Shown: one piece after another, positions 123 through 30,968 of the stretch
How the letters are laid out: each line of letters begins with the position of its first letter
Position numbering within the stretch: the stretch's first letter is position 1
DNA from: Thermodesulfobacteriota bacterium
GTDB taxonomy: Bacteria; Desulfobacterota; Deferrisomatia; Deferrisomatales; JACRMM01
Assembly: GCA_040756475.1 (NCBI GenBank)
Contig: JBFLZB010000002.1
Location: 1-33,343, forward strand
DNA: 33,343 bases
Reading direction: 5' to 3'
Made by a program: the position numbers and the translations under genes
Notes under the pieces: model-generated
Database searches by the model: none
What the model was told of the DNA's origin: nothing
The model's input: only the letters and a program-made list of their open reading frames with translations

Positions 123-1094
123 ATGAACCAACGTCCGTTTCCCGCGGGCCGAGACCGGCCCTTCCGACCTCTTGACGGGGCGGGGCCCCGCCTGCTCGCC
201 GCGGCGGCGGGCATCCTGTGCCTGACCTCGGCCGCCTCCGGCGCGGGGGTCGTCACGGAGGGGGACCGCACCTGGGCGGCCGCCGCGCTCCGGGAGGAGC
301 AGAGCCTCCCCGCGCGGGCGGCCCCCAACACGGTGGGAGTCCTGTACTTTCACAACCGCACCGGTGACGCCGCGCTGGACCCTCTGCAAAAGGGACTTGC
401 CCTCCTGCTGGTGACCGACCTCTCGGCGGTCCGGGGACTCCAGGTGGTGGAGCGGGTGCGGCTCCAGGCCCTGGTGGAAGAGCTCGGGTTGGGGAAGACG
501 GGCCTGGTGGAGGAGGGCTCCGGGCCCCGGGTGGGCCGCCTCCTGGGGGCGCGCTGGCTGGTGGGAGGGATCCTCACCTCGCCTGCTCCCGCGGCGGTTA
601 GGGCCGAACCCCGCGTGCTCGACGTACCCCAGGGGGTACCCACCGGGCTCCCAGGCGCCGAGGGGGAGCTGGCCGAGTTCTTCCGGGTGCAGAAGGATCT
701 CCTCTTCCAGATTCTGGGCTTCCTCGAGGTGCGCCTGACCCCCTCCGAGGAGAGGCGCCTGCGAAGGCCCTGCACCCGAAGCCTGGCGGCGCTCCTGGAT
801 CTCTCCCGCGCCGTGGGCGCCTCGGACGCCGGAGACTACGGGGGCGCGGCCGCCTACTACGAGAGCGCCCTGCGGGAGGACCCGGGCGTGTGCCTCGCGG
901 GCGACGCCCTGCGGGACCTGCGGCGCCGCGGCCTGGTGAGCCCCCGCGCCGAGGCCGGCGAGCTCTTGGAGAGCCTGCGCAGCAGCACCTCGCTCACCGA
1001 CGCCCTCACCCCCAAGGACGCGCTGCGCCGCGGCGCGCCCGCGGCGGGAACCCGGAGCGTTCCCGTGGAGGTCCGCATCGATTTTCCCCAGTAG
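123..1094 (+). CDS. CsgG-like periplasmic protein
   Basis: A 323-residue protein of unknown specific role. The ATG is chosen because AGGAGG lies 9 bases upstream; the frame is open to about position 72. The N-terminus is basic, followed by a hydrophobic stretch (about residues 23-40) ending in ASGA, so it is probably exported. Residues about 68-150 form a CsgG/curli-type core: NTVGVLYFHNRTG, then VVERVRLQALVEELGLG and RVGRLLGARWLVGG. The same VVER...L..EL.LG...RLGRL.GAR pattern recurs in the two minus-strand neighbours at 2480-2980 and 2977-4923. The C-terminal third contains a possible TPR-like helical pair (about residues 235-275). The gene precedes a beta-barrel gene by 42 bases, so they probably form an operon. 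CsgG relatives make outer-membrane pores or envelope assembly factors; which applies here is inference. Confidence 0.8.
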   Translation: MNQRPFPAGRDRPFRPLDGAGPRLLAAAAGILCLTSAASGAGVVTEGDRTWAAAALREEQSLPARAAPNTVGVLYFHNRTGDAALDPLQKGLALLLVTDLSAVRGLQVVERVRLQALVEELGLGKTGLVEEGSGPRVGRLLGARWLVGGILTSPAPAAVRAEPRVLDVPQGVPTGLPGAEGELAEFFRVQKDLLFQILGFLEVRLTPSEERRLRRPCTRSLAALLDLSRAVGASDAGDYGGAAAYYESALREDPGVCLAGDALRDLRRRGLVSPRAEAGELLESLRSSTSLTDALTPKDALRRGAPAAGTRSVPVEVRIDFPQ

Positions 1095-1136: not shown

Positions 1137-2342
1137 ATGCGTCATGGGCAGACTCTGAAGCGGTGGAAGGCACCTGTTGCGGCCGGCGCGGCGCTCGGGG
1201 CGGGGGGCGCCCTGATCGCCCTGGTCGCACTGGTCGCACTGGTCGCACTGGTCGCGATGCCGCGGCCCGCGAAGGCCGCGGAGACCACGGCGTCCTCGGG
1301 CTTTGCGGTCCACCCCTGGTGGGGCTCGGGGGAGCGGGCGGTTCAGTTCTACGTCCCCGCCGAGGTGGAGTACCGGGCGGGTCCCTTCGCCGCCGGACTC
1401 CTCACCGCCTACGCCCACACCTGGCGCCGGGGCTCCGGGGGGGAGGACGCCTCCCTCTCCGCCCTGCTGGACACCAAGCTCACCACCTCGTACTCGGCCG
1501 TGGGCCGGCTGCCCGTGGACGTCCTCCTGGGACTCGACCTCAACCTCCCCACGGGAAAGACGCGCCTGAGCCGCCGGGAGGCCTCCCTGGTGATGGATCC
1601 GGATCTCGTGCCGATCACTTCCTTCGGGGAGGGGTTCAACGCAAATCCCACCCTGGCGCTGGCCCGCTCCTGGGGGGCGGTGGCGGCGGGCGTGGGGGCG
1701 GGGTACGCGTGGCGCGGGTCCTACGACCTGGGCTCGGCCGCCGGGGGCGACGACTACGACCCGGGCGACGTGGTGACCCTTTCGGCCGAGGTGCGCTGGG
1801 CGTTCGCCCCCACGTGGGAGGCGCGGCTGGCGGGGGGCTACGCGCGGTACGGCCGCGACGAACTCGACGGGAAAGAGGTGCTGGGGGAGGGAGACTTCTG
1901 GAGTCTTCTTGCCGGATGCAGCCGGGACTGGGGCCGCTGGTCCGCCTCGGCGGACGTGCAGGGAATCTTCCGGCAGAAGAGCGAGGTCCTCTCGGCCGAC
2001 GGCACCCTGGGCACCGAGCCCGAGCGCAGCCGCGGCCCCGAGTGGCGGGGCGCGGCGCGCGCCGGCTATGCCCTGGACGACGCCACGCGCCTGACCGCCG
2101 CCCTGGAAGGGCAGTACACCGCGGAAAACGGGTACTCGGACGACTCTCCATTCTTCGTGGGCAGCCGGGAGCGCGTGGCGCTGACCGCAGGCGTGGGGCG
2201 GCAGTTCGCCTCCGTCTGGGAGGCCCAGGCCGACCTGGGGGGGTTCTACCTCCACACCGAAGAGAGCCGGCTCGCGCCCGCCCTGGACGCGGGAACCTAC
2301 CTGGGGCTCGTGGTCCGGGCGTTGGTGACGGTCCGGTTCTAG
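1137..2342 (+). CDS. Outer-membrane beta-barrel protein
   Basis: About 401 residues. The ATG at 1137 is preferred over GTG 1119 because GGAGAAAGAGG precedes it. The N-terminus is a signal peptide whose hydrophobic core is a literal ALV repeat (residues about 24-41), with a likely cut near AKA|AET. The mature part is a run of short amphipathic strands with alternating aromatic residues and G/D/N turns, and it ends in LVTVRF; a terminal phenylalanine is the usual outer-membrane insertion signal. I see no plug, OmpA or enzyme domain, so this is a transporter-like or structural barrel of unknown ligand. It follows the CsgG-like gene and faces a four-gene operon that holds two more CsgG-like proteins, so it may be the outer-membrane partner of that system (inference). 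Confidence 0.8.
   Translation: MRHGQTLKRWKAPVAAGAALGAGGALIALVALVALVALVAMPRPAKAAETTASSGFAVHPWWGSGERAVQFYVPAEVEYRAGPFAAGLLTAYAHTWRRGSGGEDASLSALLDTKLTTSYSAVGRLPVDVLLGLDLNLPTGKTRLSRREASLVMDPDLVPITSFGEGFNANPTLALARSWGAVAAGVGAGYAWRGSYDLGSAAGGDDYDPGDVVTLSAEVRWAFAPTWEARLAGGYARYGRDELDGKEVLGEGDFWSLLAGCSRDWGRWSASADVQGIFRQKSEVLSADGTLGTEPERSRGPEWRGAARAGYALDDATRLTAALEGQYTAENGYSDDSPFFVGSRERVALTAGVGRQFASVWEAQADLGGFYLHTEESRLAPALDAGTYLGLVVRALVTVRF
1212..1256 (+). repeat. 9-bp tandem repeat inside a signal peptide
   Basis: Five head-to-tail copies of a 9-bp unit (CTGATCGCC, then three CTGGTCGCA, then CTGGTCGCG) encode the hydrophobic core of the barrel's signal peptide. Gain or loss of a unit keeps the frame and changes the core by three residues. 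Confidence 0.9.
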
Positions 2343-2479: not shown

Positions 2480-2980
2480 TCACCGTCCTGCCGCGAGGGC
2501 GCTCGCCGCATCGTCGGCAGCGCGCAGGAGGGCGGTCCAGTCGCCGGCGGGGCCGGTGCCCTGGGCTGCCTGGAGAATCTTGCCGGTTTCCACGTCCACC
2601 AGGCGAAGATCCACCCGCACCTGCCCCCCGAAACTCTGGTAGCCGCCGAACACCATCTGCCGGGCGCCGGCCAGCCGGCCCAGGCGAAGGCGGGTGGCCT
2701 CGTCGGCGAGCACGCCGGAGCCCAGCTCGAGCTCTGCCAGGAGGGCCGCCAGGCGCTGGCGCTCCACCACCGGGTAGCCCCGAACCCGAAACGCCTCCGC
2801 CGCCTGCCCCCCCAGGACCTCCCCGAGCTCCGGCTGGGTCCGGGCCGCCGTGAGGTCGTCCAGGTCCCACACCGCCACGGGGCCGTGTGGCGGGGCGGGG
2901 GGGACCGAGGCGCAGCCGGCCGCCAGGAAGAGGAGCGCCGCCGCCACCACGGCGGCAACGCGGCCGAGCGGCCTCCTCAT
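2480..2980 (-). CDS. CsgG-like lipoprotein
   Basis: A 166-residue lipoprotein. The start MRRPLGR is followed by a hydrophobic segment and the lipobox LAAGC (Cys at about 23). The mature part is a compact CsgG/GNA1162-like domain: VAVWDLDDL, then YPVVERQRLAALLAELELG, RLGRLAGAR, and VDLRLVDVETG. This matches the core of the protein encoded immediately upstream (residues about 420-560) and the plus-strand gene at 123-1094. The start codon overlaps the stop of the upstream gene by 4 bases (ATGA), so translation is coupled. It is the last gene of the minus-strand operon. It is probably anchored in the outer membrane and works with the larger CsgG-containing protein; no enzymatic residues are visible. 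Confidence 0.82.
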   Translation of the reverse strand: MRRPLGRVAAVVAAALLFLAAGCASVPPAPPHGPVAVWDLDDLTAARTQPELGEVLGGQAAEAFRVRGYPVVERQRLAALLAELELGSGVLADEATRLRLGRLAGARQMVFGGYQSFGGQVRVDLRLVDVETGKILQAAQGTGPAGDWTALLRAADDAASALAAGR

Positions 2981-4923
2981 CGCCGATCCTCGCCGGGGAA
3001 CCGCTCCCGGATCCGGTCGTCCGGCCGGGGGGCGCGCTCCCCCGGCAGCGCCTCGGCATGGCTCAGGCCCGGCTCCACCCGCGCCACCCGCACCCGCCCC
3101 ACGGAGCGGATCTCTCCCTGGAGGAGCTTCCCCCGGTATTCCACGGGTTCGCCCTCTTCCACCAGGTCGAACTCGGTCCCCGGCACGACCCCCTGGGAGG
3201 AGCCGATGTTGAGGAGCACCCGGTCCCCCTCGGCGCGAACCACGTAGCCCTGGAGGGGGTACTGGCGGATCACCGTGCCCAGGATCTCGCGGTTCAGGGC
3301 CAGGACCTCCCGCTCCAGGGCGGCGGCGGTCCCCAGGGTCCGGGTCCAGACCTTCGCCACGGCGGAGGTCTCGGTGTCGATGAGGCGCAAGCTCAAGAGC
3401 GACTCCTGGGGGCCGTGGAGCAGGGTCCCCGTGCCGATGAGGCGGGCGGCGAAGAGCCGTCCGAGGCGAAGCGCCGTTTCCGGGTCGGCGAGCTCGGAGG
3501 AGCCCAGGTTGAGCTCTTCGAGGAGCCGCGCCAGGAGCGCCCGCTCCACCACCTGCACCCGCCCCGAAGCGCCGAGCTGCTCGGTGAGCTGGGTCAGCAG
3601 CACCGCGGAGAACCCGTCGCGATCTGCGAGCCCGCCCTTTTCCTGGACGTCCACGAAGGTCAGCACCATGGGGCCGGAGGTCCAAGGGTCGTCCCTGGTC
3701 GGGGGCGCCTTCTCCCGGCTCCGGAAGCGGGCGGAGAGCTCCTTCACCAACTGGTCCACCCGGCGGCTGCGCTCAGCATCCTTCTGGAGCTCCACCAGCT
3801 CCTGGGCCCGGCGCGCCAGGGTGGCGGCAAAGGGGTCGGTGGCGTCCACCGCCAGAGCCCGGCGGTAGGTTTCCAGAGCCTGGTCCCACCGGCCCTCCTT
3901 CTCGTAGGTCAACCCCTTGTTGGTGGTGGTCTCCACGTCGAAGGGGTTGAGGAGCTCTGCCTTCTCGTAGAGCTCCCGGGCCCGCTCGTACTCTCCCCGG
4001 CCGGCCGCCAGGCGTCCGAGCTGGTTCGAGGCCCGCGCCGCCTGGCTCGGCGGAGCCACCGGCGCCGCGGCGGCCTTGCGATACTCGGCCTCGGCCTGGG
4101 CCGTTTCTCCCCGGGCCAGGAGCACGTCTGCCTTGACCACGTGCGCCGGGGCGCGGCCGGGCGCCTTCTTTTCCACCTCCGCCGCCAGCGCCAGGGCCTT
4201 GTCGGGCTCTCCCCGGCGCGCGTGGACCGCGGCCAGCCCTTCCTTGCCCAGCACCTCCGCGTCCCCGCCCGTGGCCGCCAGCTCGCGGAACACCCGCTCG
4301 GCCTCCGGGAGATCCTTCTGCGCCAGGGCGGCGTTGCCCCGTACCGCCTTTGCCCCGGGGTGGGCGGGGTTTTCCCGGGCCACCGCGTCGCCGATGGCCA
4401 GGGCCACGGCGGGGGCCCGCTGCTGGAGCTTTCGCTCGGCCAGGCGCACGAGCATGGCCTCGGTGGTCTTGCCGCCCCCCTCGAAGCGGTCCAGAACCCG
4501 GCGCCCCGGGCCCAGCACGCAGGCGGTGGGCAGCACGATCTCCGCGCCGTAGCGCTCGCTCACCGCGCCTTCGTCGAGGAGGATGGGAAAGGACAGGCCC
4601 GCGGCGGCTGCCGACTGGGCCGCCGCCGCGGCGGGCGAGGTGGTGATGCCCCACACGGCGAGCGCCCCCGGCGGGAAGGTCTTGGCCAGCCGGTCCAGGG
4701 TGACGAGGCCCTCCTGGCTCGGCCGGGAGTCCACGTCGAAGAACCAGAGCACGAGCAAGGGCAGCTCTTCGGCGGACCGAAGGTCGAAGATCTGTCCCTT
4801 GAGGTCCTTCAGCACGAACTGCGGCGCCTCGTGGCCCGGCAGGGGTTTGGCCAGGCCGGGCGCCCCAAAGGCGGTCACGAGGACGAGGGCGGCTATCCAC
4901 GCGGGCAGGGCGGATGGTTTCAC
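2977..4923 (-). CDS. Thioredoxin-like/TPR/CsgG multidomain exported protein
   Basis: A 648-residue exported protein. Signal peptide about 1-25 (cut near GLA|KP). Residues about 28-165 are an AhpC/TlpA-type thioredoxin fold (GHEAPQFVLKDLKG, LLVLWFFDVDSRPS, GVSFPILLDEG-like, PTACVLGPGRRV), but the CXXC redox pair is absent: the site reads FFDVDSRPS. Residues about 175-395 are TPR-like repeats, including NPFDVETTTNKGLTYEKEGR and ALAVDATDPFA. Residues about 415-560 form a CsgG-like domain with VVERALLARLLEELNLG and RLGRLFAAR. The C-terminal 80 residues are strand-rich (VVRAEGDRVLLNIGSSQGVVPG), reminiscent of the C-terminal domain seen with FlgT/CsgG-like proteins. It lies 16 bases downstream of the kinase gene. 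Probable role: a periplasmic assembly scaffold rather than an oxidoreductase (inference). Confidence 0.85.
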   Translation of the reverse strand: MKPSALPAWIAALVLVTAFGAPGLAKPLPGHEAPQFVLKDLKGQIFDLRSAEELPLLVLWFFDVDSRPSQEGLVTLDRLAKTFPPGALAVWGITTSPAAAAAQSAAAAGLSFPILLDEGAVSERYGAEIVLPTACVLGPGRRVLDRFEGGGKTTEAMLVRLAERKLQQRAPAVALAIGDAVARENPAHPGAKAVRGNAALAQKDLPEAERVFRELAATGGDAEVLGKEGLAAVHARRGEPDKALALAAEVEKKAPGRAPAHVVKADVLLARGETAQAEAEYRKAAAAPVAPPSQAARASNQLGRLAAGRGEYERARELYEKAELLNPFDVETTTNKGLTYEKEGRWDQALETYRRALAVDATDPFAATLARRAQELVELQKDAERSRRVDQLVKELSARFRSREKAPPTRDDPWTSGPMVLTFVDVQEKGGLADRDGFSAVLLTQLTEQLGASGRVQVVERALLARLLEELNLGSSELADPETALRLGRLFAARLIGTGTLLHGPQESLLSLRLIDTETSAVAKVWTRTLGTAAALEREVLALNREILGTVIRQYPLQGYVVRAEGDRVLLNIGSSQGVVPGTEFDLVEEGEPVEYRGKLLQGEIRSVGRVRVARVEPGLSHAEALPGERAPRPDDRIRERFPGEDRR

Positions 4924-4939
4924 GGCGGTCCTCCTGTGG

Positions 4940-6181
4940 TCAGTTCCCCGAGTCCTCCACGGGGGCCAGCTCTATGGAAAGAGGCGTCTCGCCCTCGGCC
5001 TTTACCAGCACCCGCGCCTCCCAGTCGCCCCGGCCGGGGTAGGTGAGGCGCACGTCGTGGCGGCCCGCGGCCACCGAGAGGGTCGCCGGAGTGAGCCCCT
5101 GGAAGGCCCCGCCCACGAAGAGCTGGGCGCCGGGCGGAGCGGTCTCGATGCGCAGGGTGCCGTACTGCGCCGGAGGGGGCTCCGGTCGGCTGGCAAAGTA
5201 GAGGCCGGCCCCAGCCGCGAGTACGCCTGCGGCGAGCGCCGCCCCCCACGCGGCCCGGCGCCGGGGCGTTGTGGCGCGGGCCCCTCCGGAAGCCGGCTGG
5301 ACGGAGCCCGCGAGATGCGCCCGCAGGGCTTGTGCCAGGGCCGCCGCCGTGGGGAAGCGCGCCTGGGGGTCCTTCTGGAGGCAGCGCAGGATGATGTTTT
5401 CGAGCTCCCGGGGCAGCGCAGGATTTCGCCGGCAGGGTGCCTCGGGCTCCTTGTGGGCAATGGCGAAGAAGACCGCGGCCAGGTTGTCCCCCGCAAAGGG
5501 CTTGGCCCCCGTGGCGAGCTCATAGAGGATGATGCCCAGGGAGAAGAGGTCCGAGCGCGCGTCCACCGGTTGGCCGGCCACCTGCTCGGGAGACATGTAG
5601 CTCGGGGTGCCCAGGATCTGCCCCACCTCGGTCCGGTCCCCGGGGGCCAGGCTCTCGATCCGGGCGATCCCGAAGTCGGTGATCTTGATGCGGCCGTCGG
5701 AGCGGATGAGGATGTTGCCCGGCTTGACGTCCCGGTGGACGATGCCCTTGGTGTGGGCCTCCTCCAGGGCCTCGGCCACGGTGGCCCCGAGCTCGGCCAC
5801 CTCCGCCGGAGCCAGCCTCCGGTTCTTGGCCGCCTGGCTGAGGGACTCCCCCTCCACGAGCTCCATGGCGATGTAGACGGTGCCGTCGGCCGTGTCCACG
5901 TTGAAGACCCGGACGGTGTTGGGGTGCTCCAGGCGCCCCAGGGCTTTCGCCTCGGAGAGGAACCGGCGCACGAGCCCCTCGTCGGAGAGCCGTTCCCGGC
6001 GCAGCACCTTGAGGGCCACGTCCACGTCGAGGTTGGGGTCGTGGGCGCGGTAGACCACGCCCACGCTCCCGCTCCCGATCTCACTGAGGATTCGGTACCG
6101 CCCCACGGCTTCCACGTCATGCCTCGGTGCTTCGCGGTGGGCCTTGTTTCGTTGCCCGTTCGTTTCCCGATCATCGGGCAT
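4940..6181 (-). CDS. Transmembrane Ser/Thr protein kinase with C-terminal PEGA domain
   Basis: A 413-residue Hanks-type kinase, probably active: glycine loop GSGSVG (36-41), lysine K58 in VALKVL, catalytic HRDVKPGN (149-156), DFG (169-171), SPE (197-199). One transmembrane helix (about 311-329) is followed by a PEGA domain (about 340-408, TLRIETAPPGAQLFVGG), so the kinase is cytoplasmic and the PEGA domain extracytoplasmic. The ATG overlaps the upstream protease gene by 11 bases. The first 25 codons are low in complexity and partly made of heptamer-like repeats, so a start nearer GRYRILSEIG is possible. Kinases of this design sense envelope state; its neighbours (an exported protease and CsgG-like proteins) suggest that it regulates that envelope system. 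Confidence 0.93.
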   Translation of the reverse strand: MPDDRETNGQRNKAHREAPRHDVEAVGRYRILSEIGSGSVGVVYRAHDPNLDVDVALKVLRRERLSDEGLVRRFLSEAKALGRLEHPNTVRVFNVDTADGTVYIAMELVEGESLSQAAKNRRLAPAEVAELGATVAEALEEAHTKGIVHRDVKPGNILIRSDGRIKITDFGIARIESLAPGDRTEVGQILGTPSYMSPEQVAGQPVDARSDLFSLGIILYELATGAKPFAGDNLAAVFFAIAHKEPEAPCRRNPALPRELENIILRCLQKDPQARFPTAAALAQALRAHLAGSVQPASGGARATTPRRRAAWGAALAAGVLAAGAGLYFASRPEPPPAQYGTLRIETAPPGAQLFVGGAFQGLTPATLSVAAGRHDVRLTYPGRGDWEARVLVKAEGETPLSIELAPVEDSGN

Positions 6182-7130
6182 CGGGTCGCCCCAGGAAGCG
6201 GAGCACGGTTTGCGCCGGGATCACGAACCCGCGCGTCTCGTCCGCCTTGAGACGTCCCCGCACTACCCCTGAGAGCCTGCCCTCCCCGTCGAAGAGCGGG
6301 CTCCCGCTGCTCCCGGGCGGCGTGGGCAGGTCCACCTCCCAGAGCACTGCGGTACCCATGCGGCGCATGGGCAGGAGCAGGCGCCCCTCCCGCACGGTGG
6401 TCTCCCCCGGCGCGGTGCAACCCACCGCGTAGACCGGGTCTCCCTCCCCCACTGCGAGGCGGGCGTTAAGGGTCTCCACGTGCGGTCCAAATCCGTTGCC
6501 TCCGGGCACGGGCCCGGTCCGGAACAGGGCAAGGTCTTCCTCCGGGTCGGTGCGCACCCGGTGCCCCGGGACGCGGCCTCCCCCCGGCCACACCACGGTT
6601 ACCGTATCGGCCCCTTCGAGGCCGTGGGCCGTGGTGAGCACCGTGCCCGCGCCGTCTACGGCAAAGCCGGAGGACTGGCGCGGGCCGTCGGGCCCGTGGG
6701 ACAGCAGGCACACGACCGAGGGCCGGCGCGCCAGCACGGCCGCCGGGATCGGTACCCGGGGTAGGGGAGGCGCCTGCGAGCCGTCCCGGGCGTAGCGCTC
6801 CAGCACGCGCTCCAGGGCTTTCTCCCAGGGCTCGGCCAGGGTCGCCGGGACCACCGACACCGACTCCACGCAGGTCGCCAACGCGGAGCAGGGGCGCAGG
6901 GCGAGGTTCCAGTCCTGCTCCCCCCGCCGTCCCTCCAGCCGCGTGCCCCCCTCCGGGAGCTCCCACCGGCGGACCTCGAATCCGGACCGTTCGAGCCACC
7001 GGCCGATGACGATTCCGGTCTCCGGCAACGGATAGGGCCACCGCACCCCCTCGGCGAGGGCGGCCGCGGATCCGGCCAGGGTCAACGCGCAAGCCGCGGC
7101 CCCAAGGGTGCGCAGGAGCAGGCTCCTCAC
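6171..7130 (-). CDS. Exported trypsin-like serine protease
   Basis: A 319-residue protein with a signal peptide (about 1-27, ALAEG). Residues about 130-310 form a trypsin-like (S1C/Deg-type) domain with the catalytic triad visible: H169 in LTTAHG, D199 in EEDLALF, S277 in GSSGSPLF. No PDZ domain follows, unlike DegP/DegQ. The N-terminal 110 residues (a tryptophan-rich region with a possible disulfide C81/C87) are not recognised. It is the first gene of a four-gene operon and overlaps the kinase gene. A periplasmic protease beside a sensor kinase suggests quality control or proteolytic signalling (inference). Confidence 0.88.
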   Translation of the reverse strand: MRSLLLRTLGAAACALTLAGSAAALAEGVRWPYPLPETGIVIGRWLERSGFEVRRWELPEGGTRLEGRRGEQDWNLALRPCSALATCVESVSVVPATLAEPWEKALERVLERYARDGSQAPPLPRVPIPAAVLARRPSVVCLLSHGPDGPRQSSGFAVDGAGTVLTTAHGLEGADTVTVVWPGGGRVPGHRVRTDPEEDLALFRTGPVPGGNGFGPHVETLNARLAVGEGDPVYAVGCTAPGETTVREGRLLLPMRRMGTAVLWEVDLPTPPGSSGSPLFDGEGRLSGVVRGRLKADETRGFVIPAQTVLRFLGRPDAR

Positions 7131-7179
7131 GGCGGGACCGGCCTCCCGATGGGTCGAGGTCGAGGGCTTCGAGGGCTAC

Positions 7180-7207
7180 AGTGTACGCCCTTTCGGAGCT
7201 TTGCAAA
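7180..7207 (-). promoter_or_regulatory. Possible sigma-70 promoter for the protease-kinase operon
   Basis: On the minus strand TTTGCA (7207-7202), 16 bases, then TACACT (7185-7180). The match is moderate. It lies 50-77 bases before the protease start codon. Confidence 0.35.
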
Positions 7208-7209
7208 GC
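7198..7209. promoter_or_regulatory. 12-bp perfect palindrome between divergent promoters
   Basis: GCTTTGCAAAGC is a perfect palindrome. It overlaps the -35 of the minus-strand promoter and ends 12 bases before the -35 of the livF promoter, which is a suitable place for an operator controlling both directions. Confidence 0.4.
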
Positions 7210-7220
7210 GAGCCCCGCGC

Positions 7221-7249
7221 TTGACCTTGGAAACCCCGAACCGTAAGAT
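7221..7249 (+). promoter_or_regulatory. Sigma-70-type promoter upstream of livF
   Basis: TTGACC (7221-7226), 17 bases, TAAGAT (7244-7249). Five of six and four of six bases match the consensus. The livF start lies 73 bases downstream. Confidence 0.6.
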
Positions 7250-7321
7250 TTCCGCCTTCGGTGGTCGTGTTCGCCCGGGGCCCGGCGGGTCCCGCCTTCC
7301 CCACCCGCGGAGAGTCCCTCG

Positions 7322-8029
7322 ATGCTCGAGCTTCGCGAGATCCAGACCTACTACGGGAACATCCAGGCACTCAAGGGGGTTTCCCTGCGCGTGGAGGAAG
7401 GGGAAATCATCACCCTGATCGGGGCCAACGGAGCGGGCAAGAGCACCACCCTCATGTCGATTTGCGGCATCGCGCCTCCCCGGGGGGGGGAGATCCTCTT
7501 CCGGGGGAAGCCCATCCACGGCCGCACCCCCGACGAGATCGTGGCCCTGGGGATTTCCCAGGTGCCGGAGGGCCGCCGCATCTTCCCCCTCCTCACCGTG
7601 GCGGAGAACCTGGACATGGGGGCCTTCCTGCGGCGCGACAAGGGGGGTATCAAGGAAGACCTGTCCCACGTCTACGAGCTCTTCCCCATCCTGGCCGAGC
7701 GGCGCCACCAGGCAGGGGGCACCCTGAGCGGGGGCGAGCAGCAGATGCTCGCCATCTCGCGGGCGCTCATGGCACGCCCCCGGCTTCTCCTCCTGGACGA
7801 GCCCTCCCTGGGGCTCGCGCCGCTGATCGTCAAGCGCATCTTCGACATCGTGCGGCGGATCAACCGGGAGGGAGGGACGACCATCTTCCTCGTGGAGCAG
7901 AACGCCAACCTGGCCCTCCAGTTGGCCCACCGGGGCTACGTGATGGAGACCGGGCGCATCACCCTGGAGGACCGGGCCGACCGGCTCCTGGCGAACGAAG
8001 ACGTCCGAAGGGCCTACCTGGGCCTGTAA
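7322..8029 (+). CDS. livF: Branched-chain amino acid ABC transporter ATPase LivF
   Basis: A 235-residue ABC ATPase of the LivF family. Walker A GANGAGKST (about 37-45), signature LSGGEQQ, Walker B LLLLDEPSLGLAP, and the family-typical VEQN in place of the H-loop histidine. ITLEDRADRLLANEDVRRAYLGL is the usual LivF end. It would pair with LivG to drive LivHM. It lies ahead of livK rather than at the end of the operon and has its own promoter, so it may be transcribed separately. Confidence 0.95.
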   Translation: MLELREIQTYYGNIQALKGVSLRVEEGEIITLIGANGAGKSTTLMSICGIAPPRGGEILFRGKPIHGRTPDEIVALGISQVPEGRRIFPLLTVAENLDMGAFLRRDKGGIKEDLSHVYELFPILAERRHQAGGTLSGGEQQMLAISRALMARPRLLLLDEPSLGLAPLIVKRIFDIVRRINREGGTTIFLVEQNANLALQLAHRGYVMETGRITLEDRADRLLANEDVRRAYLGL

Positions 8030-8198
8030 CGCCCGTCGCGGAGAGCGGGGGGATTCGCGCGCCGAAACAGGCCCGCCGCCGAGAACCGCAGCCAGCGGGG
8101 GCCCGGGGGTGGAGGGGGGAGACGGGCCCCCGGCGCCCCGCGCGGCCCCCCCCGGGAGCGGGCTGGGAAGCCGGGTCGGCACGCCGGCGGGAACGCGG

Positions 8199-14921: not shown

Positions 14922-14987
14922 ATCGGTATCGGTATCGATATCGCTATCGACCCCGACCCCGACCCCGATAGCGATAGCGATACCGAT
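14922..14987. repeat. Hexamer-repeat hairpin
   Basis: The left arm (14922-14949) is ATCGGT/ATCGAT/ATCGCT units; the right arm (14966-14987) is the inverse (CGATAG/CGATAC units); the loop is three GACCCC units. The arms pair with few mismatches over about 22 bp. It lies between convergent genes. The rest of the 411-base gap (14716-15126) holds the Ig-domain remnant and the cytochrome terminator. Confidence 0.8.
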
Positions 14988-15126: not shown

Positions 15127-17613
15127 CTACCAGCGCTCGGAGCCGTGGCAGCCCTGGGTCGAGCAACTCCGGGTTGCCGGGTTGTAGGAAGTCACCCGGG
15201 TATCGGCGCCACCGATCGTCGTCGGGGCAACCCCCTCGCGTCCCGGGGTGTCGAGGCCGGCGAAGTGCACGTCGGCCAGGCGCGCCGTGCTGTGGCACAC
15301 CGTGCAGTCGTATCCCCGGCGGCTCACGTGGAGGGTGTGGCGCCCCGAAAAGTAGCCGTTGTCTTCCCCGGTGCCTGCCTCGTGGCACGACCGGCACTGT
15401 ACGTCCACCGCGATGGTCCCCGTCCACCACTCGGGGGTGGTCTGGCCCCCGTGGCAGCTCAGGTTGGAGCAGGTGCCGTCCAGGTTGTCCGCGGCCTGCC
15501 CGCGCCCGGCGTCGAGGGTCGCCGGAAAGGCCAGGTCCACGGAACCGTCGTGGGTTGCCCCCAGGTGGCACACGCCGCAGTCGGAGCCCACGGTGGGCAG
15601 GGCCGCGTGGGCGGCGTGGGCCCCTGCGGTGTTGGGGAACGCGTTGCCCGAAGGCGGCATGCCGTGACAGGCGGTGCAGCTTCCAACGGGCGGCGGATCG
15701 GTCGGAACGGTCGGTTCCGTCGGGTCACTGGGATCGGTTGGGCCGGCGAGCTGGTTGAGCCACGCGGCCAGGGCCTGCTCCTCGGCGCTGGAGAGCAGGG
15801 TGCCCATGTGCCCGGCCTGGAGCTTCGGGGCTACCAACGCCCCGGCGCCGGCCAGGTCGGGGGCGAAGCCGGTGGGGTCTTCCGAGCCGGCCGTATGGCA
15901 GCTCGCGCAGTCCGCCAGGTACACGGCGTAGCCGTCCGCGGGGCCAGACGGATCAGTCGGATCGGTCGGATTCGTCGGATCGGTCGGGCCGGCGAGCTGG
16001 TTGAGCCAGGCCGCCAGGGCCTCCAGCTCGGCCCCGGAGAGCGCGGCGCCCATGTGCCCGGCCTGGAGCTTCGGGGCCACGAGCGCCCCTGCGCCGGCCA
16101 GGTCGGGGGCGAAACCGGTGGGGTCTTCCGGGCCTGCCACATGGCAGCTCGCGCAGCCTGCCAGGTACAGGGTAAGGCCGTCGGCGGGGCCAGTCGGATC
16201 GGTCGGGTCGGGCGCTCCGGGAAGGGCGGAGGCCAGGGCGTCCAACTCGGCGTCGGTCAGGACGATGCCCCCCATGCCCCCCGCGTCGGCGCCGATGGCG
16301 GCGCGAATCTGGGCGGCGGTGCGGCCGGGCACGTCGGTCCCGGCGAGGGGGCCGTGGCACCCCGCGCATTCCGCAGCGTAGAGGGCAGTGCCGTCCGGGG
16401 GGGCGGTCGGGTCCGTGGGCGGGGGCACGGCCTGGGACACCGTGTCGAGCCACGCCGCCAGGGAGGTGAGCTCGGCGGCGGACACGGTAGCGCCCATGTG
16501 ACCTGCCTGGAGCTTGGGGGCAACCAGGGCCCCGGAACCGGCCAGATCGGGGGCGAACCCCGCCGGGTCGCCATCCCCCGCCTTGTGGCACGAAGAACAG
16601 CTGGCATCGTACACGGCCTGGCCGTCCGGCTGGGCCGGCGGAGGATCTTCGGGAGTCTCAGGGGGCGTCTCTGGGGCCGGGTCGGAGGGCGGGCTGCCCG
16701 GGTCTTCGGGGTCCAGGCCGGTACGGGCCTGGTAGACGCTCCGGGCCATGGGCCCGGCGCCCCCCAGCACGGCGTGGACGGCCTCGTCCATCGCCTCGCG
16801 GGTGGCAGGGTCGCCGGTGTGGTCGCGAAGGCGTGCCACGAGCTCCCGCTGGAGGCGGGCGGCCACGTGGATGGCGTCGCCGAGGGTGAAGGGGTGCTCG
16901 GGCTGGGCTCCGGCCTCTGCGGCCAGCTCCGCCCGAAGCTGGGGATGGAGGGTGGTCTGCACGGCGTGGACGAACTCTTCGAGGAGCCGGGCCACGTCCG
17001 GCTCGGCCAGGGCGTCGGGCCCCAGGCCAAAGTCGCCGGCCAGGGTCATGAGGGCCATGGCGGCCATGTTGGCCTGGAGGGGCCGCAGTGCGGCCTCACT
17101 CACCTCGCCGGCTTCTTCGGCGAGCCCCGCCATGGGGTCCGCCAGCAGATCCGAAGCCGTCAGCCCCGGGAGGCCGGCCGCGCGGAGCGCCTCCAGGAGG
17201 TCGTCGGGCTCGATCCCGTTGGACAGGAGGGTGGTGAGGGGCGAGACCACGACGGACTCCCCGTCGTCCGGCCCCACGGATCGCTTGAGCAGGCCGCCGA
17301 AGGGGGCCCCCGCGTGGGTCCCCCGGGCTCCCGCCTTCATCTCCACCCGGGAACCCTCCCGAAGCGGGGAGGGAAACTGGAAGCGGCCCAGGTCGTCCGA
17401 AGGACTCGACTCCCGCTGGACCAGGGTGCCGTCGGCGGCCACTTCCTGGAACACGGCTCCTTCGATATAGGGGTCCACCGCCACGCCGGAGCGGGTGGAC
17501 GTGAGGACCGGGTCGCCGGAGCTGTCGCCGCTGCAGCCGACAAGGGCGGCTGCGGCGGGCAGGAGAAGCAAGAGGAGGGGAACGAACGATCGGGTGATGG
17601 GCTTTCGGAGCAT
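15127..17613 (-). CDS. Ten-haem c-type cytochrome lipoprotein
   Basis: An 828-residue lipoprotein; ATG 17613 follows GGGAGGA, and the lipobox LVGC puts the lipid on C27. Residues about 30-290 carry no haem (a strand-rich domain starting SGVAVDPYIEGAVF, then helices). Eight CXXCH motifs (CSSCH, CAGCH, CASCH twice, CTACH, CGVCH, CRSCH, CTVCH) and two CX4CH motifs (CSNLSCH, CSTQGCH) give ten probable haem sites. The first four sit in monohaem cytochrome-c-like modules with distal HMG, joined by Thr/Asp/Pro linkers. The last six form a C-terminal domain of the Geobacter CX4CH/CXXCH type. The likely role is electron transfer at the outer surface, for example to metal oxides. It has its own sigma-54-type promoter and terminator, so it is probably monocistronic. 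Confidence 0.93.
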   Translation of the reverse strand: MLRKPITRSFVPLLLLLLPAAAALVGCSGDSSGDPVLTSTRSGVAVDPYIEGAVFQEVAADGTLVQRESSPSDDLGRFQFPSPLREGSRVEMKAGARGTHAGAPFGGLLKRSVGPDDGESVVVSPLTTLLSNGIEPDDLLEALRAAGLPGLTASDLLADPMAGLAEEAGEVSEAALRPLQANMAAMALMTLAGDFGLGPDALAEPDVARLLEEFVHAVQTTLHPQLRAELAAEAGAQPEHPFTLGDAIHVAARLQRELVARLRDHTGDPATREAMDEAVHAVLGGAGPMARSVYQARTGLDPEDPGSPPSDPAPETPPETPEDPPPAQPDGQAVYDASCSSCHKAGDGDPAGFAPDLAGSGALVAPKLQAGHMGATVSAAELTSLAAWLDTVSQAVPPPTDPTAPPDGTALYAAECAGCHGPLAGTDVPGRTAAQIRAAIGADAGGMGGIVLTDAELDALASALPGAPDPTDPTGPADGLTLYLAGCASCHVAGPEDPTGFAPDLAGAGALVAPKLQAGHMGAALSGAELEALAAWLNQLAGPTDPTNPTDPTDPSGPADGYAVYLADCASCHTAGSEDPTGFAPDLAGAGALVAPKLQAGHMGTLLSSAEEQALAAWLNQLAGPTDPSDPTEPTVPTDPPPVGSCTACHGMPPSGNAFPNTAGAHAAHAALPTVGSDCGVCHLGATHDGSVDLAFPATLDAGRGQAADNLDGTCSNLSCHGGQTTPEWWTGTIAVDVQCRSCHEAGTGEDNGYFSGRHTLHVSRRGYDCTVCHSTARLADVHFAGLDTPGREGVAPTTIGGADTRVTSYNPATRSCSTQGCHGSERW
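15803..16129 (-). repeat. In-frame duplicated haem modules
   Basis: About 80 bases at 15803-15883 and 16049-16129 are nearly identical (246-base spacing, 82 codons); a more diverged third copy is at 16493-16572. Each encodes APDLAGxGALVAPKLQAGHMG of a cytochrome module. The linker between modules (about 15948-15990) is itself a 6-base GGATCG/GTCGGA-type repeat encoding TDP units. Confidence 0.85.
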
Positions 17614-17719
17614 GGGTCCTCCCTGGAGGGACGAGGGGGTTCGGGCCACGGGATCCGGGCGGCCCGGCGGGGCCCGAGTCCGCCGAGTCGCATGGGTGGG
17701 TACCTGGACGAAAAGCTTT

Positions 17720-25038: not shown

Positions 25039-25056
25039 GGGAAGATCCTATTCTGG

Positions 25057-25169
25057 GACAGGATGACAGGATGGACAGGATGGAATTTTGGTGGAGCTGA
25101 ACCTGCGAGCCGCCGGTCTGCCTGTAGCCGTTCCCCTCAGCCCCATCCTGATCATCCTGTGATCCTGTC
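25057..25169. repeat. Inverted 9-mer repeat pair, metF/hdrCB junction
   Basis: Arms 25057-25083 and 25143-25169 are complementary at 24 of 27 positions and are built of ACAGGATGG-like units. The right arm contains the metF stop (25152-25154) and encodes its last residues, FDRITG. Confidence 0.9.
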
Positions 25170-26190: not shown

Positions 26191-26314
26191 GGACAGGATG
26201 ACAGGATCAACAGGATAGAGCCGGATTCTTGTTGGAAATGTCGGTGCGGAGTCTTGTCGCATAGCAGCGAGTCGAAGAGGTTCTATCATCCTGTCCATCC
26301 TGTTCATCCTGTCC
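26191..26314. repeat. Inverted 9-mer repeat pair, metV/metF junction
   Basis: Arms 26191-26216 and 26285-26314 (ACAGGATGA-type units and their complement) pair over about 26 bases with one indel and few mismatches. They fill most of the 168-base gap. The right arm starts 16 bases beyond the metV stop. Confidence 0.88.
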
Positions 26315-26330
26315 AAGGGCTTATCCCTTC

Positions 26331-30887: not shown

Positions 30888-30968
30888 CGCTGCTCGTTGC
30901 TCGTTGCGCGTTGTCCGTTGTCCGTCGTCCGTGGAAGTCCGTGTCGGTCCGTGCCCGTCCGTGCGCTC
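30888..30968. repeat. Heptamer repeat, hdrCB/hdrA junction
   Basis: Units GTTGCTC, GTTGCGC, GTTGTCC and then GTCCGTG-like units fill nearly the whole 87-base gap. Confidence 0.85.

Follow-up and report, generated by a model that had tools for sequence, protein, structure and literature searches.

We found that the signal peptide of a probable outer-membrane beta-barrel protein, encoded near one end of a 33,343-nucleotide stretch of DNA from a Thermodesulfobacteriota bacterium (hereafter the window), contains a tandem array of five 9-bp units, and that this array is probably a replication-slippage expansion which occurred in this lineage and was tolerated in the low-constraint hydrophobic core of the signal peptide. 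The coordinates of the array, of its gene and of the gene upstream are shown in Table 1.

Table 1. Location of the array, the parts of the signal peptide and the two adjacent genes in the window
Feature	Positions	Strand	Details and basis
CsgG-like gene upstream	123-1094	+	PF03783, E 1.5e-7, 31.4 bits against a cut-off of 20.8
ORF P0001, signal peptide plus probable outer-membrane beta-barrel	1137-2342	+	401 aa; translation, 20 orthologues aligned
n-region, MRHGQTLKRWK, positively charged	1137-1169	+	translation
First part of hydrophobic core, A/G-rich, non-repeat, APVAAGAALGAGGA	1170-1211	+	translation
Five 9-bp tandem units encoding LIA-LVA-LVA-LVA-LVA	1212-1256	+	sequence, Tandem Repeats Finder, translation, shuffles
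Perfect period-9 core of the array	1221-1255	+	35 bp, about 3.9 copies; sequence
c-region, MPRPAKA, ending in A-K-A before AET	1257-1277	+	translation; A-X-A rule as described in PMC5875014

The units read, in order, CTGATCGCC, three copies of CTGGTCGCA and CTGGTCGCG, and lie in the frame of the ATG at position 1137, giving the peptide LIALVALVALVALVA. Identity is complete only among units 2-4, unit 1 being off by two bases and unit 5 by one, and the perfect stretch is, judged from its sequence, the part of the array that should be most able to slip. Tandem Repeats Finder reported a repeat at 1208-1255 with a period of 9, 5.3 copies, 94% matches and a score of 75, the second highest in the window. 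Only a 246-bp duplication scored higher; it consists of two tandem copies of approximately 246 bp that are 87% alike (15731-16211) and lies inside a minus-strand gene (15127-17649) matching cytochrome c families. The preliminary description had placed five tandem units, in frame and within the signal peptide, at exactly the location found here, and had correctly stated that each unit adds three residues with the frame unchanged, 9 bp being three codons. Its view that the array makes up the hydrophobic core was accurate for the later half of the core, whereas the A/G-rich segment, which has no repeat, comes first.

The precursor starts with MRHGQTLKRWK-APVAAGAALGAGGA-LIALVALVALVALVA-MPRPAKA-AET. 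Examined by eye, it has the layout of a Sec type I signal peptide, with a charged n-region, an uncharged core and AKA, and the A-K-A before AET, also assigned by eye, is likely the signal peptidase I site. The core is longer than is usual for this class (an uncharged stretch of 31 residues, compared with a median of 17 and a range of 6-20 in 20 orthologues), and we regard the signal peptide as a putative atypical member of Sec type I. The twin-arginine motif of the Tat pathway was not present at the boundary of the n-region and the core, which reads LKRWK and has no Arg pair. Tat signal peptides are described as having this motif, a core less hydrophobic than that of Sec signal peptides and often a positively charged c-region, and Arg or Lys in the c-region is described as rare among Sec signal peptides (PMC5875014). 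Here such traits were mixed, the very hydrophobic core speaking against Tat and the Arg and Lys in MPRPAKA for it. Sec was preferred because the Arg pair is missing and because of the strong hydrophobicity of the core.

Several lines of evidence suggested that the array is a product neither of chance nor of codon choice. First, it had the highest period-9 score (31; next 21) in 391,265 bases of its own genome. This sample comprised the window and 20 further stretches of the same genome (411,665 bases, of which 391,265 were readable, one all-N stretch being dropped), and five Markov resamples of it reached maximum scores of only 9-13. Second, a 27-base pattern of three units, allowing up to three mismatches, had three overlapping matches, all inside the array, whereas 100 shuffles gave 0.00 matches on average. 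Third, units 2-4 are identical down to the Ala codon GCA, whose share among the Ala codons of the genome sample is 5.8%. If LVA is taken as given three times, the probability is 5e-7 that all three are CTGGTCGCA and 0.008 that any three units are identical; the latter is the fairer figure because the form of the array was noticed after the fact. The threefold use of GCA points to DNA duplication, in agreement with the origin suggested in the preliminary description. An effect of codon usage or composition was rejected as the source of the array, since GCA is rare and the Markov resamples did not exceed 13. A mobile or recurrent genomic repeat was also rejected, as few other matches to the LVA pattern or to the surroundings of the array were found in the genome: a degenerate two-unit LVA pattern occurred at three further places, none in the CTGGTCGCA form (the reversed control matched twice), and a 606-base query around the array had, in addition, just two short matches (35-39 bases in the genome, 86%).

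Short tandem arrays were abundant in the genome sample, with 34 rows, some of them listing one array under two periods; 18 rows fell outside called genes and many others at gene ends. The genome is rich in such arrays, and therefore duplication of this type is common there. Among 283 gene calls, three, including the window gene, had an in-frame array score of at least 15 within their first 70 codons; on inspection, the remaining two seem to have starts called too far upstream, so that they read into leader repeats. Further into genes there are other arrays, for example one of 15 bp in L027 and one of 9 bp in L020, both stretches of the same genome, so that the window array is not the only one in coding DNA. 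Loss of mismatch repair had no support as a cause: the genome has two MutS_V matches and, with MutS-family genes present, there is therefore no sign of a slippage mutator. Other short arrays in the window, with units of 6, 7 or 9 bp, are located at 2443-2475, 14922-14987, 25056-25084, 26287-26315 and 30891-30964, and additional ones were observed at L024:9457-9532, L017:16186-16218 and L022:7101-7169; units that recur among the arrays of the genome include GGACAGGAT, CAACGGA, GGGTGAC and ATCGGT. At L032:6686-6725, a 7-bp unit, GGGCATG, is repeated 5.7 times within or immediately upstream of a called gene (6484-8136); as its length is not a multiple of three, this unit could cause a frameshift or change the leader.

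A comparison with orthologues showed how the array is distributed. When 395 genomes of the phylum were searched with a profile built from five orthologues, 23 of them, the genome of the window included, had matches, at 24 places in all (an earlier single-sequence search had found matches in 6 of 99 genomes, again including its own). One of these places is the window gene, two (L077 and L079) were dropped because a contig end truncates them, and one (L080) was dropped as weak and divergent (E 1.8e-7). The remaining 20 orthologues have complete N-termini and belong to the same phylum, the genus being represented by the genome of the window alone; in two pairs (L064/L065 and L069/L070) the signal peptides are the same or almost the same, so that the independent number is nearer 18. 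The window protein is only 32-42% identical to its orthologues in the alignment. All 20 orthologues lacked the array (best period-9 score 6, compared with 31), among them that of G001 (L062), the only genome of the same family among the 99. Because of this absence, the array is lineage-specific and not needed by the family, and a fixed family motif was rejected.

The orthologues also provided a measure of how much core is sufficient. The signal peptide, measured by eye, has 47 residues in the window protein and 22-39 in the 20 orthologues. Summed hydropathy, a crude measure whose low end is set by a His that splits the core of one orthologue, was 67.0 in the window protein and 12.6-46.4 in the orthologues (median 36.8). 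The value computed for the window protein was 17.7 with no units, 27.8 with one, 37.6 with two, 47.4 with three and 67.0 with all five; thus two units approximately equal the orthologue median and more than three exceed all 20 orthologues. The upper copies look redundant, to judge from these computed values, since two units already match the family median.

Based on these observations, we propose that copies of a CTGGTCGCN unit, encoding Leu-Val-Ala, accumulated in a Sec-like core in this lineage, with replication slippage as the most likely mechanism. The expansion would have been tolerated because the core, which must be hydrophobic, is free in sequence and exact length, and because every added unit lengthens the peptide by three residues and leaves the frame intact. 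The protein is probably still exported and cleaved normally, since the long hydrophobic core still runs into the A-X-A site, perhaps with a larger share routed through the signal recognition particle. Changes of copy number near five are expected to be almost neutral: a change from five to four or six units should matter little because two units match the family median hydropathy, and export should weaken only if no more than one unit is left. However, several points count against this reading: units 1 and 5 have diverged, and the array is therefore not brand new; the great length of the core could be a sign of selection; Arg and Lys in the c-region are uncommon for Sec; and the MutS-family genes give no sign of a slippage mutator. 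If slippage and tolerance are indeed the explanation, the array is an example of how a protein segment under low constraint can take up extra in-frame DNA, and its units form a natural length series for studying the relation between core length and export.

The protein that carries this signal peptide is a probable outer-membrane beta-barrel, as the preliminary description had assumed, although the support comes from its relatives. The window protein itself matched no Pfam and no NCBIfam family at E values up to 1, whereas some of the 21 aligned members of the family had weak matches at the same threshold to MipA (7), Phenol_MetA_deg (4) and OMP_b-brl (3), all of them in relatives. No PDB sequence matched the family profile at E values up to 10. 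A C-terminal Phe is a motif of the barrel signal, and F401 is conserved in at least 90% of the 21 aligned sequences. A structure model from the single sequence was poor (mean pLDDT 35 overall) except for the signal helix, a predicted 28-residue helix at residues 12-39 with blocks of mean pLDDT 57, 74 and 76. A search of genome_contigs with a protein pattern gave 34 pattern stretches with no relative confirmed, and the pattern of the upstream flank had zero matches in viral_contigs.

The gene upstream, besides its CsgG match, has TPR matches below their cut-offs. Of 19 upstream ORFs at the 20 orthologue loci, ten were chosen, most of which share a C-terminal motif or a TPR-like end, and all ten had a CsgG match (loci L060-L063, L066-L069, L072 and L073, with the CsgG-like gene immediately upstream of the barrel gene). 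Because the pair occurs here and all ten chosen ORFs match CsgG, it is a recurrent arrangement, and in the window the two genes possibly form one transcription unit. Several other orthologues have long upstream ORFs of apparently other kinds. On the other strand, the region 2977-7130 (minus) of the window encodes a TPR protein with an AhpC/TSA match and a CsgG match below the cut-off, a protein kinase with a PEGA domain and a trypsin-like protease.

Among the alternative explanations, it is unlikely, in our view, that selection at the protein level favored a longer and more hydrophobic core, with duplication as a mere supplier of units and the copy number now fixed. The core is the longest among 39 signal-peptide-like N-termini (31 residues; next 27, median 20), which were picked by a rough rule from 283 rough gene calls in the genome sample, and this could be a sign of selection for a special signal; in addition, its summed hydropathy lies above the range of all 20 orthologues, and highly hydrophobic signal peptides are described as those recognised by the signal recognition particle (PMC5875014). 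However, the LVA units may do no more than make up for the weak A/G-rich half of the core, and ordinary cores suffice in the orthologues.

The preliminary description had raised the possibility of graded tuning of export; in such a contingency locus, frequent slippage in a population would set different levels of barrel export in steps of three residues. We consider this quite improbable. The unit is in frame, the perfect tract reaches 35 bp and the product is probably an outer-membrane protein; moreover, signal peptide cores are described as requiring a minimum length and hydrophobic density, with core length and hydrophobicity acting on secretion in either direction, higher hydrophobicity having increased it in some studies and decreased it in others (PMC5875014). 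Precedents for variation also exist: populations of Salmonella and E. coli gave rise to mutL alleles differing in a three-copy 6-bp repeat (PMC2955026), the mutation rates of repeat loci were correlated with copy number in several species, and the VNTRs of E. coli O157:H7 without the most variable locus had a combined rate of 6.9e-4 mutations per generation (PMC3777172). On the other hand, approximately four perfect copies are few, and in the E. coli VNTR study alleles of up to 13 units had a constant and lower rate, although its authors warn against generalising (PMC3777172). Furthermore, with two units at the orthologue median hydropathy, the response should be saturated at five, and none of the 20 orthologues keeps the array. 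Phase-variable loci have a tandem array in coding or promoter DNA, and the window gene shares this feature in its coding part, but their frame-shifting off-switch unit has no counterpart in a unit of three codons.

A more elaborate version, in which an in-frame signal peptide minisatellite acts as a rheostat and a copy number drifting by slippage sets both precursor routing and the amount of surface barrel that is made, seems very improbable to us; the routing choice would possibly be between the signal recognition particle and SecA/SecB. If copy number both varied and mattered, a bacterium would vary a surface protein by degrees, not by an on/off switch, via its signal peptide. Equally hard to credit is an uncleaved signal anchor, in which the length of the core keeps the protein in the inner membrane or slows cleavage: the predicted helix and a core longer than others in the genome sample would fit it, but the core is followed by Pro residues and the A-K-A site, outer-membrane assembly is favored by the conserved length and the nearly invariant C-terminal Phe, and the structure model is poor overall.

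A parallel array was found outside this family. In an Actinomycetota MAG, a DUF3999 protein (L049:907-2133, minus strand; start MKSAIAAAMSLVLVALVALVALVAATAAGA) has a signal peptide core with three copies of CTGGTCGCT followed by CTGGTCGCG, which are CTGGTCGCN-type units read as LVA. As in the window, the array lies in the signal peptide core, but it has four units and occurs in an unrelated protein and another phylum. Among 26 stretches of genome_contigs with at least four exact-core units, eight read LVA and 18 another frame such as D-Q-G, D-Q-R or A-T-S, the reading frame being a rough choice; of the eight, only L049 has a clear signal peptide, and L057 has a possible membrane segment. Because L049 is an unrelated protein with a parallel array, signal peptide arrays of this kind form independently, though they are rare among LVA-type arrays. 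A narrow search of open-licence literature, judged by titles and the beginnings of abstracts and liable to miss other wordings, gave no bacterial in-frame signal peptide repeat.

The P.II proteins of Neisseria gonorrhoeae are the Opa proteins. In the genes for these surface proteins, CTCTT repeats are likewise arranged in tandem in the stretch coding for the signal peptide; however, their unit has 5 bp and switches expression on and off by frameshift (PMC3899988), whereas the 9-bp unit in the window always stays in frame. In eukaryotes, signal peptides are enriched in leucine repeats, which are placed as the repeat is here, but these are runs of a single residue, in contrast with a bacterial unit of three residues; that study sets bacteria aside as having far fewer such repeats (PMC3124433). 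The mutL repeat of Salmonella and E. coli (GCTGGC, read as LALALA) resembles the window array in being in frame, in coding for Leu and Ala and, for its part, has copy-number alleles, but it has three copies, lies in the ATP-binding region and, when changed, is reported to give defective MutL (PMC2955026), whereas the window repeat lies in a signal peptide. The same size of change occurs in the human APOB variant rs17240441, a 9-bp indel of the signal peptide equal to three residues (27 or 24), for which small associations with APOB and lipid levels are reported (PMC5586014). It is a one-unit eukaryotic polymorphism with evidence from association only, whereas the window contains a five-unit bacterial array in one genome.
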